Of a DNA stretch of 64,000 bases, positions 5,877 through 21,153 are shown piece by piece. The position numbers were made by a program, and so were the translations under genes. Source of the DNA: Desulfoscipio geothermicus (GTDB lineage: Bacteria > Bacillota > Desulfotomaculia > Desulfotomaculales > Desulfallaceae); assembly GCA_016841205.1 (NCBI GenBank), contig JAENZP010000009.1:65285-129284 (forward strand), read 5' to 3'. Every line of letters starts with the position of its first letter. Position 1 is the stretch's first letter. The notes under the pieces are model-generated. The model did not search any database and was not told where the DNA came from. It saw only the letters and a program-made list of their open reading frames with translations.

Positions 5877-6272
5877 ATGCTTTCTCAAAACGAGCTAGAT
5901 GAATTTCTCGGCAAATTAAACAATCGTGAAACCACAATAAACAAAGTTAAATATCCTGAATTACAAGTACAGACCGTGCTGCCTCAAGCTAAGCTACCTA
6001 TAGATTTTTTTAATGATATTACCGTAAATATATTGGTGGAACTGGGACAAGCCACCCTTACTGTTAAAGAGGTTCTCAACATGAAAGAGGACATGGTTAT
6101 TGAGTTGGAAAAGGCTGCCGGGGAAACTGTTAACCTCAAAGTGAACTGTCAAAGTTTTGCTCGTGGTGAGGTTATTATAATTGGGAATAACTTGGGGATT
6201 CGTGTTGACCGGATAAATGACCTTAAATATCCCACCGGTGCCCGTCAGGCCAAGGATCTTAAAAATGGATAA
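5877..6272 (+). CDS. fliN: FliN-like flagellar switch protein (SpoA domain)
   Basis: A 131-aa protein with one SpoA (FliN C-terminal) domain at about residues 47-118 (DITVNILVELGQATLTVKEVL, then GEVIIIGNNLGIRVDRI). SpoA proteins form the cytoplasmic C-ring base. The N-terminus reads MLSQNELDEFLGKL, which resembles the CheY-P-binding peptide normally found on FliM and FliY; that is unusual for a plain FliN. A full FliY is encoded at the end of the operon, so this is an extra switch component. ATG 5877 has a good AAAGGAGAA site. It overlaps fliO by 8 bp. Confidence 0.87.
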   Translation: MLSQNELDEFLGKLNNRETTINKVKYPELQVQTVLPQAKLPIDFFNDITVNILVELGQATLTVKEVLNMKEDMVIELEKAAGETVNLKVNCQSFARGEVIIIGNNLGIRVDRINDLKYPTGARQAKDLKNG

Positions 6273-11605: not shown

Positions 11606-12797
11606 AAAATTTGTAGCTCCCGATATGCAGCTGGCATTGCAGCAAATCCGCCAGGAACTGGGAGAAGACGCGGTTATAGTGAGTACTATCAAAGAACCCA
11701 TCAGGAATATTAGAGATCTTTTAGGACACCGGAATATAGAGGTAACAGCCGCTGTGGACGATGTAATTCAGAAAGCTGCGCAGCCTTATTTAATTACAGA
11801 TGGTAACAATGATCATGTACAACAAGTAGTTAGCAATGAATTGCCTGCGCAAATAATACCGGGCAGGTTAATTCCTGCCAAGCTGCCTGAGCCGATTTTA
11901 CCAATTGCCGGCCAGGAAGATAACGGGTGGTTTAAAGTTATATTGCAGCAAGAAATAGACAAGGAGGGTAACGGTATGGAGAACAGTATGGAGAATAATA
12001 CGGACGGTATAGTTTTAAAATGGAAAAAAATATTTCGTCATATGGAAGTCGATGAAACAGTTATCAATAATATCTTTAAGGATTTTGCTGAAAACAATAT
12101 TAATAATATTTTAGATGAAGATATTTTTAAAATACATATTCGGAATAAAATAATTGATCTACTAAAACCCGCTTATGATAAAAGCAAGTCAGCCCGCATT
12201 TATACATTTATTGGACCTTCGGGAGTAGGGAAGACGATTACTTTGGCCAAACTGGCTACCAAGTTAAAAGTGATAGAGAAAAAAGAAATAGGTCTGATTA
12301 GCATCTTTAACCACCGTTTTGGCACTACAGATAAATTAAAATTTTTTGGTGAAATCATTGGTATTCCTGTTGATATAGTGACAAATCCCGCTGAACTAAT
12401 TAGGGCAGTTGAGACCCACCGCAACAAAGAAGCAGTTTTTATTGATACTGAGGGCAGGCCTTCCAAGAACCGCAGTCAGGTGTTGGAGTTACAGTCCTTT
12501 TTAGGGGCAGTGGGTGAACAGCAAAATATTTGTCTTGTTTTAAGCACCCCCACCAAAAACCGGGACTTGATAAGAATTGCCAACGATTTTATGCCCACCG
12601 GTTTCGATAAGATAATCATGACTAAAGTAGATGAAACGGATACATACGGTTCCATGCTGAATCTTATCAGTAATACCGGCGTACCTGTAGTTTATGTTGC
12701 CAACGGGTCAAATGTGCCGGATGATATTGAACGTATAACTCCCAAACGTTTGGCTGAAATATTACTTGGGGGCGCGGGAAGCGATGAGGATTATTAA
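11595..12797 (+). CDS. flhF: Flagellar SRP-like GTPase FlhF
   Basis: FlhF is the third SRP-type GTPase and helps place flagella. From ATG 11595 the protein has 400 aa: an N-terminal region (MKIKKFVAPDMQLALQQIR), a charged linker, and an NG domain with P-loop GPSGVGKT at 207-214, DTEGRP as the G3-like motif (usually DTAGR), and TKVDET as the TKxD motif. The DTEGRP variant is a small departure from the family consensus. flhG is encoded next to it, as usual; FlhG normally stimulates FlhF GTP hydrolysis. Confidence 0.92.
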   Translation: MKIKKFVAPDMQLALQQIRQELGEDAVIVSTIKEPIRNIRDLLGHRNIEVTAAVDDVIQKAAQPYLITDGNNDHVQQVVSNELPAQIIPGRLIPAKLPEPILPIAGQEDNGWFKVILQQEIDKEGNGMENSMENNTDGIVLKWKKIFRHMEVDETVINNIFKDFAENNINNILDEDIFKIHIRNKIIDLLKPAYDKSKSARIYTFIGPSGVGKTITLAKLATKLKVIEKKEIGLISIFNHRFGTTDKLKFFGEIIGIPVDIVTNPAELIRAVETHRNKEAVFIDTEGRPSKNRSQVLELQSFLGAVGEQQNICLVLSTPTKNRDLIRIANDFMPTGFDKIIMTKVDETDTYGSMLNLISNTGVPVVYVANGSNVPDDIERITPKRLAEILLGGAGSDEDY

Positions 12798-13641
12798 ACG
12801 TATCTTTGCTCCCCAAAGGGCAGTACCAGCCTGGGGTCCCAGGATTATTACCATTACCAGCGGTAAAGGTGGTGTGGGAAAAACCAACTTGGCGGTTAAT
12901 CTGGCTATTGCTTTGTCACAGCTCGAACAGCGGGTGATTATATTTGATGCCGACCTGGGAATGGCTAATGTGGATGTGCTGCTTGGAGTAGCTCCGCAGT
13001 TAACCCTATATGACCACTTGTACAGAAATGTACCAATAGAAGATATTTTATTACCGGGACCCGGTGGAATTAAAATTATTGCCGGCGGATCAGGGTTTAT
13101 GGAGTTGGCCAATCTTTCCAATACCCAACGTGCCTGGCTGCTGGAAAATATAGAAGAGCTTAACAAACTGGCAGACTTTATACTAATTGATACAGGTGCG
13201 GGTATTTCCAGAGATGTTTTAGCTTTTTGTGCTGCTGCAAACGAGGTGGTTATGGTTATTACTCCTGAACCTACGTCATTAACTGACGCTTACGGGCTAA
13301 TTAAAGTGTTGGATAAGTTTAAACTGCATCGTGAAATTTACCTTATCGTCAACCAAGTTCACAGTCATAATGAATCTACGGGAGCGGTCAACCGGTTAAA
13401 GGCTGTGGCGGATAAATATCTATTTATTAAAATCAATTTTTTGGGCGATATAGTATATGATCAGTCAGTTGGCAAGGCAGTCCAAAGTCTTCGACCATTT
13501 ATATTACATAACCCTAGTGCCAAGGCAAGTGCTGCTGTTAAAAAAATTGCCTATACCATACTCTATAAAAGAGAACCCGAAATAAACGAAAATAGAGGTA
13601 TTCCAGGTTTTATAAATAAACTGAGCAGGTTATTCAGGTAA
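12784..13641 (+). CDS. flhG: FlhG/YlxH MinD-type ATPase
   Basis: A ParA/MinD-family ATPase that sets flagellar number and position with FlhF. The deviant Walker A motif SGKGGVGKT is at residues 26-34, and FDADLGMANVDVLLG and LIDTGAGISRDVLAF follow as the switch regions. The usual N-terminal FlhF-activating segment is replaced by a short basic stretch (MRIIKRIFAPQRAVPAWG). I take ATG 12784, overlapping flhF by 14 bp; TTG 12766 would add six residues. The length of about 285 aa is normal. Confidence 0.92.
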   Translation: MRIIKRIFAPQRAVPAWGPRIITITSGKGGVGKTNLAVNLAIALSQLEQRVIIFDADLGMANVDVLLGVAPQLTLYDHLYRNVPIEDILLPGPGGIKIIAGGSGFMELANLSNTQRAWLLENIEELNKLADFILIDTGAGISRDVLAFCAAANEVVMVITPEPTSLTDAYGLIKVLDKFKLHREIYLIVNQVHSHNESTGAVNRLKAVADKYLFIKINFLGDIVYDQSVGKAVQSLRPFILHNPSAKASAAVKKIAYTILYKREPEINENRGIPGFINKLSRLFR

Positions 13642-17918: not shown

Positions 17919-18539
17919 ATGTTTGTATCCAACAAATTAACAGAACTGCAAATTGATGCGCTGCGGGAAATAAGCAACATAGGGCTGGGGCATGCCGTAA
18001 CTTCACTGGCAGAGATGTTGGAAGGGAAAATTGGCATGGATGTTCCACATGCAAATTTTATTAGCATGGAAGAAGTAATAGAAATTCTCGGGGGATATGA
18101 GGAACTGGTCTCCTGTGTCAGCTTGGAGTTGGATGGTGATATTCAGGGCAGTGTATTTTATATTTTTAATAAATCCAGTACATACAAATTGGTGGACACG
18201 CTGATGGGGTTTGAAAGTGAGATAACAAACGGACTGGATGATATGGCCATATCTACTATTAATGAAATAGGTAATATCTTAACCGGATCATTTATATCAG
18301 CAATTAGCGATTTTACTAATTTAAAGATCATACCCTCACCGCCTATTTTCGCCTTTGATATGCTGGCAGCCATATTTACATCATTAATAATCGTCAGCGG
18401 TCAACCGGAGGGAGAGAATATTTTAACCATTAAAACCGAGATGTATAGAGATGACCGTATAATAAAAGGCTTTTTTTTCTTAATGCCGGATCCGGAGTCA
18501 TATGAAAAACTATTTTTTGCTTTAGGTGTTGGAGATTAA
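17919..18539 (+). CDS. cheC: CheY-P phosphatase CheC
   Basis: CheC removes the phosphate from CheY-P. Both active-site helices of the CheC family are present: EISNIGLGHAVTSLAEML at about residues 12-29 and INEIGNILTGSFISAIS at about 110-126, each with the key Glu and Asn. The length, 206 aa, is normal. It lies between cheR and cheY; FliY at the end of the operon is a second CheC-type phosphatase. Confidence 0.95.
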   Translation: MFVSNKLTELQIDALREISNIGLGHAVTSLAEMLEGKIGMDVPHANFISMEEVIEILGGYEELVSCVSLELDGDIQGSVFYIFNKSSTYKLVDTLMGFESEITNGLDDMAISTINEIGNILTGSFISAISDFTNLKIIPSPPIFAFDMLAAIFTSLIIVSGQPEGENILTIKTEMYRDDRIIKGFFFLMPDPESYEKLFFALGVGD

Positions 18540-18561: not shown

Positions 18562-18927
18562 ATGTCAATAAGAATTCTTGTAGTTGACGATGCAACTTTT
18601 ATGCGTATGATGATCAAAAATATTGTTACCAAACTTGGTTACGAAGTAGTGGGTGAGGCGGAAAATGGTAAAAAGGCTGTAGAAATGTATTCTGAGCTTA
18701 AACCGGATTTGGTAACTATGGATATAACAATGCCGGAAATGGACGGCATTGAAGGAGTCAAAGAAATTAAAAAATTAGACCCCGATGCTAGAGTTATTAT
18801 GTGCAGTGCCATGGGGCAGCAATCTATGGTAATGGAGGCTATTCAATCCGGGGCCAAGGACTTTATTGTCAAACCATTTAAGCAGGATAGGATTGCTCAA
18901 GCTATTGAAAGAGTAATGAATAGATAA
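18562..18927 (+). CDS. cheY: Chemotaxis response regulator CheY
   Basis: A single receiver domain of 121 aa. The acidic pocket is in VVDDATFMR, the phosphoacceptor is Asp54 in TMDITMPEMDG, and the conserved Lys104 is in IVKPF. ATG 18562 is chosen because it follows GTGGAGGG and gives the normal CheY N-terminus MSIRILVVDD. CheY-P binds the FliM/FliY N-terminal peptides encoded just downstream. Confidence 0.97.
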   Translation: MSIRILVVDDATFMRMMIKNIVTKLGYEVVGEAENGKKAVEMYSELKPDLVTMDITMPEMDGIEGVKEIKKLDPDARVIMCSAMGQQSMVMEAIQSGAKDFIVKPFKQDRIAQAIERVMNR

Positions 18928-18944: not shown

Positions 18945-19943
18945 ATGCAAGAAATCCTTTCCCAAGGTGAAATTGACGCATTATTGGATGCATTAAATAC
19001 CGGCAATATCCCTGTAGAGGAAATTGAAACTTCAACCGGTCAAAAAACAAAAATAAAAAGCTACGACTTTCGCCGGCCAAATAAATTTTCCAAGGAACAT
19101 TTAAGAACCTTGGAAACGTTGCATAACCTTTTTACCAGGCATGCAACAAGTTTTTTATCAGGCTACTTAAGATCAAATATAAATATTGAATTAGTTTCTG
19201 TCAGCCAGATAATATTTGACGAATTTATACGTTCTATACCTACGCCTACTGTACTGACAATATTTGACTTGTTGCCACTGAATGGATCGGCTATATTGGA
19301 GGCCAATAATGCTTTTATATTCCCCGTAATTGATTTAATGTTTGGTGGAAACGGCTCTGCCGGAGATTTAAACAGGGAATTAACCGATATTGAAATTCAG
19401 GTAACCCAAAAAATCATGACCAAAATTTTAGAATACTTAATTCCTACCTGGCAGGATATTTTCGAAGCTAAACCGGAATTGCGTTCAATAGAAACAAACC
19501 CCCGCTTGCATCAGTTATATTCGCCAGACGAAGTGGTGGCACTCTTGACGTTTACTGTATCGCTGGGAGAGAACGACCAGGGAATGATAAATTTATGCTA
19601 CCCGTTTATTATGCTGGATCCCGTAATTACCAAACTTTCGGTGCGACAGCAGTTTATCAGGCAATTTTCATCCTCCCAGGAAGACGACTATGCTAATATT
19701 TTACACTGGTTAAACTACTGCGATTTAGAGATCACCGCTGTTCTGGGAGATGCTCAAATAACGGTTAACGACCTTTTGCAATTACAGCAAGGCGACGTTA
19801 TAGTGCTTGATAAGAATATCAATAGTGACATAAATGTATTAGTTGGAGAAGATTTGAAGTTTGGCGCTCAGGTGGGGTTAGTGGGCGATAATTTAGCCAT
19901 TCAAATTGTTTCGCTTATCGAAGGAGATTCTAAAAATGACTGA
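18945..19943 (+). CDS. fliM: Flagellar motor switch protein FliM
   Basis: The C-ring protein that receives CheY-P. The CheY-binding peptide LSQGEIDALLDAL is at residues 5-17, followed by the CheC-like middle domain (with FDLLPLNGSAILE and PVIDLMFGG) and a C-terminal SpoA domain (LEITAVLGDAQITVNDLLQLQ). The length, 332 aa, is standard. It overlaps fliY by 8 bp. Confidence 0.96.
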   Translation: MQEILSQGEIDALLDALNTGNIPVEEIETSTGQKTKIKSYDFRRPNKFSKEHLRTLETLHNLFTRHATSFLSGYLRSNINIELVSVSQIIFDEFIRSIPTPTVLTIFDLLPLNGSAILEANNAFIFPVIDLMFGGNGSAGDLNRELTDIEIQVTQKIMTKILEYLIPTWQDIFEAKPELRSIETNPRLHQLYSPDEVVALLTFTVSLGENDQGMINLCYPFIMLDPVITKLSVRQQFIRQFSSSQEDDYANILHWLNYCDLEITAVLGDAQITVNDLLQLQQGDVIVLDKNINSDINVLVGEDLKFGAQVGLVGDNLAIQIVSLIEGDSKND

Positions 19944-21153
19944 CAATAGGCTACTCCAACAAGAGGAAATAGATGCTCTGTTAAATGCCGATAATAACAG
20001 CGATTTAACACAAGATGAAATAGATAGGATACTTCGGGGCGCACAAGATAACCATAATCAAGATTTAAATCAAAATGATATTGACGCTCTAATAATGGCA
20101 GCACAAAACGACCGTCAGGAATTACTTGAAGGGAATTTAACTTTGGACTTGACTTCGGACTTAACGGTAGAAGAAAAGGACGCGCTGGGCGAGATTGGCA
20201 ACATTTCCATGGGGTCTTCCGCTACAACTTTATCCCAATTGTTAAACCAGCGTGTACAAATCACCAGCCCTACGGTATTTGTAACAAACCAACATGATTT
20301 TTTTAGTCAGTTTAATGTACCTTATTTAGTTATTAAAGTAAAGTTTACGGAGGGTTTTGATTGTTACAATGTTTTAATAATAAGATTGCATGATGCTATT
20401 GTTATGGCTAATTTGATGATGGGAGGCGACGGGACCGAACTTCCGGAAAAGATTTCTGAGTTGGAAATCAGTGCCGCTTCAGAGGCCATGAATCAAATGA
20501 TAGGCACCGCGTCAACAGCTTTGGCAGATCTTCTGGAACGAAAGTTTTATATATTGCCTCCGGAAACCGATATGGTTCATGAGACAGAAAAAAAGGAAAT
20601 TACATTACCATTCGGTGATCCTATAGTAGTTATTTCATTTCGTATGAAGATCGGGGATTTATTAGATACAACTATTATGCAGGTGCTGGATATAGAAACT
20701 GCTCGCGAACAGGCTATGCTGCTTTGGAAAAAGTTTAGTGGCGATGATGAAGCGGCAGCGGAGCCTGAAAAGGTGCCGGATCTTGAAACAAGCGCGGCAA
20801 CCGGGGAACAAATTCTTCATGAAGTAACGGAAGAGCCTTACCAACCACAAGATATAGAAAAAGATGTTTTGTCCGGTGTAGCACTTGATAAACTTAATTT
20901 GCTTTTGGATATACCTTTGCAAGTATCGGTAGTACTGGGTCGTGCTAAAAAACAAATTAAAGAGGTATTGCAGATGACCCCGGGAGCTATTATTGAATTG
21001 GAAACGCTGGTCGATGAACCTGTGGATATACTGGTAAATGGAAAGTTGATAGCAAAAGGCGAGATTGTGGTGGTGAATGAAAACTTCGGTATTAAAATTA
21101 ACAGTACAATATCTACCAGAGCTAGAATTAATACCCTAAAAGGTCATCAATAA
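19936..21153 (+). CDS. fliY: FliY: switch protein with CheC-type phosphatase and SpoA domains, three N-terminal EIDxLL motifs
   Basis: FliY combines a CheC-like CheY-P phosphatase domain (GEIGNISMGSSATTLSQLL near 90 and SEAMNQMIGTASTALADLL near 193) with a C-terminal SpoA domain (LLDIPLQVSVVLGRAKKQI), joined by an acidic linker at about 265-310. From ATG 19936 it has about 405 aa. The N-terminus is unusual: instead of one CheY-binding motif it shows three in tandem, EIDALL at 11-16, EIDRIL at 28-33 and DIDALI at 48-53. The start has AAGGAG and lies inside the end of fliM. Confidence 0.94.
   Translation: MTDNRLLQQEEIDALLNADNNSDLTQDEIDRILRGAQDNHNQDLNQNDIDALIMAAQNDRQELLEGNLTLDLTSDLTVEEKDALGEIGNISMGSSATTLSQLLNQRVQITSPTVFVTNQHDFFSQFNVPYLVIKVKFTEGFDCYNVLIIRLHDAIVMANLMMGGDGTELPEKISELEISAASEAMNQMIGTASTALADLLERKFYILPPETDMVHETEKKEITLPFGDPIVVISFRMKIGDLLDTTIMQVLDIETAREQAMLLWKKFSGDDEAAAEPEKVPDLETSAATGEQILHEVTEEPYQPQDIEKDVLSGVALDKLNLLLDIPLQVSVVLGRAKKQIKEVLQMTPGAIIELETLVDEPVDILVNGKLIAKGEIVVVNENFGIKINSTISTRARINTLKGHQ

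Follow-up and report, generated by a model that had tools for sequence, protein, structure and literature searches.

Why should a flagellar motor switch protein carry a CheY-docking peptide three times over? The question is raised by fliY in the 64,000-nucleotide stretch of Desulfoscipio geothermicus DNA analysed here (hereafter the window), in which an initial annotation made from the sequence had noted three EIDALL-like motifs at the FliY N-terminus; in the available part of PMC9126983, EIDALL of FliM and FliY is given as the docking site of CheY-P. The fliY gene (19936..21153, forward strand; 405 aa from the ATG) lies directly 3′ of fliM (18945..19943, forward strand; 332 aa), whose stop is overlapped 8 bases by the fliY start. 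Its product is laid out as a motif array at about residues 1-72, a CheC-like domain (PF04509, 9.3e-23), and a FliN-like C-terminal domain (FliMN_C, PF01052, 2.9e-23), the latter two being the domains that define FliY, and it scored 399.8 bits with NF005995 (flagellar motor switch phosphatase FliY), above the cut-off of 218. The same-strand gene cluster also encodes CheD, CheC (a further CheC-family gene at 17919..18539, forward strand; CheC 1.1e-20), and CheY (18562..18927, forward strand; 121 aa; Response_reg 3.5e-34), the last being the likely ligand of the motif, judging from sequence. The best solved relatives of this CheY were the CheY chains 1tmy (2.5e-52) and 4iga (2.8e-52), the second of which we take to be the complex of Thermotoga CheY with the FliM peptide. 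Three FliMN_C matches were found at E 0.001 in the window's genome (G000, 3.38 Mb in 36 contigs), namely FliM, FliY, and a short FliN-like protein (5877..6272, forward strand).

Translation and scoring against a profile built from FliM only (29 distinct N-terminal 10-mers from 110 FliM loci) bore out the three FliY motifs at the positions and spacings first described. Copy 1, LQQEEIDALL (19954..19983, forward strand; residues 7-16), scored 23.9 bits and corresponds by position to the sole motif of other FliY proteins; copy 2, LTQDEIDRIL (20005..20034, forward strand; residues 24-33), scored 20.5 bits; and copy 3, LNQNDIDALI (20065..20094, forward strand; residues 44-53), scored 17.6 bits. The cores EIDALL (11-16), EIDRIL (28-33), and DIDALI (48-53) are spaced 17 and 20 residues apart, with L-x-Q before each. 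All three fell below the window's FliM (32.0 bits; single motif LSQGEIDALL at 18957-18986) and below the lowest training 10-mer (28.0 bits); by these scores the copies are clearly related to the FliM peptides yet weaker, copy 3 being the weakest. Chance or composition as the source of the extra motifs was ruled out, given that shuffling residues 17-74 100,000 times produced 23 sequences with one site scoring at least as high as copy 3 and 0 with two. The start of the first CheC helix, LTVEEKDALG (20161..20190, forward strand; residues 76-85; 5.1 bits), was weighed as a fourth copy and rejected, the look-alike being present in single-motif FliY too. In all 15 FliY loci with exactly two matches of at least 8 bits the second match was this helix, although the scan ended close to it and further cases may be missed. 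The helix start, LTxEE[IK]DALGEIGN, resembles the docking peptide at up to 15.8 bits (second match in 15 of 110 loci), a likeness that may be a mere shared helix-cap pattern or a hint to the peptide's origin. Since the FliM profile also matches the first CheC helix, a profile match is not proof of docking.

An AlphaFold2 model of the window FliY, computed from 31 FliY sequences (mean pLDDT 70.8), placed helices at residues 9-17, 26-37, and 46-64, where 10-residue pLDDT means of 49-67 denote low confidence, and gave values below 50 for stretches 1-7, 19-24, 40-42, and 60-71. The prediction fits, with low confidence, an N-terminus made of three short helices strung together flexibly.

How general the array is was assessed at the N-termini of 110 FliY loci (30 from a search of relatives and 80 named ones; with 11 locus pairs each taken as one genome, about 99 genomes), for which reading frames were chosen by BLAST and motif copies counted with a fixed loose pattern. 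One copy was found in 102 of the 110 loci and three to five copies in the other 8, which belong to 6 genomes, all of the window's family, taken to be Desulfallaceae: three copies in the window, five in G003 (two loci), three in G005, four in G006, five in G001, and three in G010 (two loci). FliM bore one motif in 108 of 110 loci; of the remaining two, L021 has a frame cut by the locus end and L024 a motif altered to LSRAEIGSLL. No extra motif on FliM was found among the 110 loci. The premises of the initial annotation, that FliM has its usual single EIDALL and that FliM and FliY normally carry one such peptide, thus held in the window FliM and across these loci, and the triple motif as a general FliY trait, which that annotation had named as a result that would refute it, was ruled out for the loci read. 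Restriction of the array to the window genome was likewise ruled out, with five further genomes carrying arrays; the five-motif array of G001, used as a query against 113 genomes of the order, matched these six and no other. Within the genus, 5 of 7 genomes had a FliY match and all 5 had arrays; within the family, 12 of 16 had a FliY match, one of them partial, and the 11 N-termini comprised 6 arrays and 5 single motifs. The nearest named relative was the metagenome bin Desulfoscipio geothermicus BL5_bin.4 (L034). Two genomes of the genus, G002 and G004, gave no FliY or FliN match despite completeness of 93 and 100, which suggests from gene content that they have lost flagella. In the fliY of Pelotomaculum sp. 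UBA10960 (L063), unknown bases lie between motif 1 and the CheC domain, and a gap or masking there could hide an array.

The arrays differ in ways that record how copies come and go. A tree of 23 FliY cores, from which the N-terminus had been removed, required one switch between single motif and array in the family and four copy-number changes, the branch uniting all family arrays having weak support (70/71). The FliY of the sister species G003 is 91% identical to that of the window and carries an additional 39-residue unit bearing two motifs, which appears in its DNA as a tandem repeat with a period of 117 bases, 2.2 copies, and 94% matches. G001 has three near-identical 20-residue (60-base) units, and G006 two 28-residue (84-base) units differing in one residue plus a third similar unit; distances between neighbouring copies range from 17 to 28 residues. 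The window copies are old, with 18-19 of 30 bases agreeing between copies, and a tandem-repeat program run on the window fliY called no motif array, only a 12-base period elsewhere in the gene, because the copies have diverged. In G005 (L006), LSQSDKDQNL between copies 2 and 3 is an apparent decayed copy, decayed copies being counted at 8 bits or more only, and in G001 copy 1 is weakened to LQQDEIEALI (12.2 bits). Read from these sequences, in-frame tandem duplication adds copies and decay also removes them, so that the chemotaxis switch seems to have acquired a docking array capable of expansion.

Such turnover might also be neutral, with repeat slippage in a disordered linker producing copies of which one suffices while the others are tolerated as hitch-hikers. 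The near-identical, recent units of G001 and G006 and the decayed and weakened copies just described are what slippage would leave behind, but the older copies retain the motif while their synonymous sites change, the six family arrays hold 23 intact copies against one decayed copy found, and long N-termini elsewhere (L050, L051) carry one motif; we therefore regard neutral slippage as improbable. The substitution patterns behind this judgement are as follows. Over the 10-residue motif, pS exceeded pN in 30 of 35 within-gene copy pairs, the other 5 being mostly very recent copies, although few changes were available to count, and choosing the 10-residue windows by pattern biases them towards conservation. 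The strongest contrast came from the second and third copies of G010, which over 18 residues showed 11.0 synonymous differences in 11.8 sites and 3.0 nonsynonymous in 42.2, and the window copies compared among themselves gave a modest contrast (pS 0.51-0.69, pN 0.29-0.37). Between the window and G003, matching units had pN of 0, 0.021, and 0.017 and pS of 0.32, 0.35, and 0.13, and the 200 core residues had pN of 0.050 and pS of 0.21. A loose pattern asking for neither L, Q, nor I recovered 23 copies in the six family arrays, of which 23 of 23 had L-x-Q and I and 21 of 23 had D. Together these comparisons of coding sequence point to selection that keeps the motif in the copies.

The kind of residue that is kept also bears on whether the repeats merely make the N-terminal tether longer or stiffer, or aid self-association of FliY, with the motif serving as a handy amphipathic helix. 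The FliY of T. maritima homodimerises via its N-terminal domain, according to the portion of PMC7355467 at hand, and the variable spacing of the copies would suit a tether; the conserved residues, however, include the polar Q and D and not a hydrophobic face alone, and some members of the family and order have long N-termini without extra motifs. This structural reading seems to us the least probable of the alternatives, below even neutral slippage.

The reading that we prefer, at roughly even odds (about 50%), is that the motif copies dock several CheY or CheY-P molecules per FliY, raise the capacity for CheY-P and its rebinding, and feed the phosphatase domain. Each short N-terminal helix would then repeat the CheY-docking peptide of FliM and FliY; in-frame tandem duplication would add copies and decay would remove them while the motif within is conserved; several CheY(-P) molecules would dock on each FliY, giving more CheY-P at the switch and more rebinding; and docked CheY-P would be passed to the CheC-type phosphatase domain, which starts 25 to 62 residues further on. 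What the sequences show is the repeat, the lineage that has it, the way it grows, and signs that it is constrained; that CheY is the ligand we infer from the motif, and we likewise infer that one FliY is occupied at several sites and that switching or dephosphorylation would be affected at all. That the array adjoins a CheC-type domain, as the initial annotation had it, was confirmed, and both E-x-x-N pairs of that domain (E86/N89 and E183/N186, one in each CheC-like half-site), which we take to be its phosphatase residues, are invariant across 31 aligned FliY sequences. One CheY takes up one FliM peptide. The avidity that had been proposed to arise from several, supposedly low-affinity sites is consequently a poor fit for monomeric CheY-P, and the extra FliY copies would raise capacity and rebinding instead.

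Published work bears on this docking of CheY in more than one direction. The accessible text of PMC340952 identifies FliY as the B. subtilis CheY phosphatase, and the likeliest effect of the array would therefore be that more CheY-P is handled per switch subunit. Excerpts of a review (PMC7355467) name a complex of CheY with the FliM peptide and state that CheY also contacts FliN, so that, by analogy, binding of CheY at two different sites (a FliM-type peptide and FliN) is possible. The same excerpts report that T. maritima FliY has no higher affinity for activated than for inactive CheY (PMC7355467), which by analogy would count against a reading specific to CheY-P. Going further, we tentatively consider FliY arrays to be a gain control open to evolution, invented at least twice, in which the length of a tandem repeat sets the number of CheY docking sites per switch subunit; this is possible but falls well short of probable. 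If it were true, lineages would tune how much CheY-P is captured and dephosphorylated at the motor by lengthening and shortening an in-frame repeat.

The idea of at least two inventions comes from the wider phylum, the only one sampled, in which FliY was matched at 1e-30 in at least 204 of 299 sampled genomes. From the matches listed, 80 N-terminal stretches were picked by hand and hence non-randomly (20 drawn from the longest frames new to the set, then 60 others), at least 6 of which appear to repeat loci already counted. Parsing succeeded for 77 of the 80: 68 had a single motif, 6 had none by pattern (L125, L126, L127, L139, L171, and L193), L124 had a spurious motif match only, the second motif of L129 was rejected as a look-alike too weak to count, and L130, from genome G118 of another family, had an array. 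The G118 FliY has three intact copies, LSQEEIDALL and LSQEDIDAML twice, 27 residues apart, scoring 31.5, 25.4, and 25.4 bits and all with L-x-Q, I, and D, while the G118 FliM has one motif. Used as a query, the G118 array matched 4 of 397 phylum genomes (G118, G010, G192, and G114), of which G114 and G192 were ruled out as further arrays, each having one FliY motif. In its own order (1 of 21) and class (1 of 46) the query matched G118 itself only, and in the class of G134 it gave 1 match in 398, a chance match; G737 was dismissed as a further array, having one site (8.7 bits) in an unrelated 456-residue frame. These genome sets overlap, many of the genomes may be without fliY, and array queries may overlook arrays with two copies or with a very different sequence, the G001 query having found G010 at just 9.8e-4. 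As far as such sequence searches reach, FliY arrays are rare in the sampled phylum. With unlike repeat units in hosts that are only distantly related, arrays probably arose twice, once in the family and once in G118, although the N-terminus may instead have been transferred, the tree of 23 FliY cores being one without G118.

The strongest rival to CheY docking, and a real one that the initial annotation had not raised, is that FlhG, a partner of the FliY N-terminus in Bacillaceae, is the main ligand of the array in place of CheY or ahead of it; we judge it unlikely, though less so than neutral slippage. An ATP-dependent FlhG dimer with two FliY sites could bridge motifs of one FliY or of neighbouring ones, giving true avidity while FliM and FliY are loaded onto FliG during C-ring assembly. 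The same gene cluster as fliY holds an flhG-like gene for a MinD-type ATPase (12766..13641, forward strand; FleN 2.8e-59, 4rz2/4rz3 1.2e-49), which in NCBIfam matched MinD-type models only, below their cut-offs, and adjoins an FlhF-like gene (TIGR03499, 158.4 bits, under the cut-off of 174.15). In the part of PMC12327844 available to us, the first 36 residues of FliY, the same N-terminal region as the array, are both required and enough for it to bind FlhG, whose dimer has two sites for FliY or GpsB; the available text of PMC12826062 adds that B. subtilis FlhG binds FliY and not FliM. Such a preference would explain why FliY expanded and FliM did not. The FliY of the FlhG-FliY N36 study reportedly carries one motif. 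The FliY-binding residues K177, R207, and F215 of Geobacillus FlhG align to K180, R210, and Y218 of the window protein, with a chain offset of 8 that was deduced and with the arginine printed once as 277 in the passages at hand (PMC12327844); these residues are, however, partly common to FleN, which makes their presence weak evidence. Two further points weigh against FlhG: its binding to FliY is independent of ATP, and hence of the dimer, in the same partial source (PMC12327844), and the residues copied in FliY are those of the FliM profile, which FliM has without binding FlhG in B. subtilis.

Compared with known systems, the window FliY is like Bacillus-type FliY (NF005995) in domain order, E-x-x-N pairs, place after fliM, and an N-terminal EIDALL, and differs in having three copies, with three to five in five relatives, against one in most loci. 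Its copies share the 10-residue consensus LSQxEIDALL of the CheY-binding peptide of FliM, which, in contrast, is single; residue 2 is S in just 6 of 26 array copies (otherwise Q 7, T 4, N 4, D 3, and G 2), the pattern used for those copies itself requiring L, Q, and I. The initial annotation had added a fourth motif on the FliN-like protein, and its N-terminal LSQNELDEFL (5880-5909) was present as described, following the initial methionine and with the core ELDEFL, but is a weak match (12.8 bits with the FliM profile), family-wide, and not tied to the array. By eye, L[ST]Qx[ED]LD[ED]FL occurred in 12 of 12 family FliN proteins (the window and the L208-L219 set; 4.0-15.8 bits), while among 18 FliN from outside the family E-I-[RKQ] occurred in 14 and E-[IL]-D in none; from these sequences it looks like a separate FliN helix and not part of the array. 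Full or degenerate EIDAL motifs on FliN and FliY were recorded in a survey of 12 bacteria, tandem copies not being mentioned in the sections available (PMC6946799), and searches of open-licence PMC papers listed no report of tandem, repeated, or multivalent EIDALL arrays. The motif on FliY and FliN is thus already known, and tandem arrays of three to five on FliY seem to be new as far as those searches reach.

Any account of how sharply the motor switches has to include the number of docking sites, of which FliM and FliY normally have one each. Related species in which the sites on FliY vary from one to five while FliM stays at one are natural variants, and they make both the role of docking-site number and the identity of its main user, CheY or FlhG, directly testable. 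Variation in FliY extends beyond the N-terminus: L021 (793-2526) and L124-L127 hold FliY-like frames 542-805 residues long, in each of which the FliY core is matched twice, as if, judging from sequence, the CheC-like part had been doubled.
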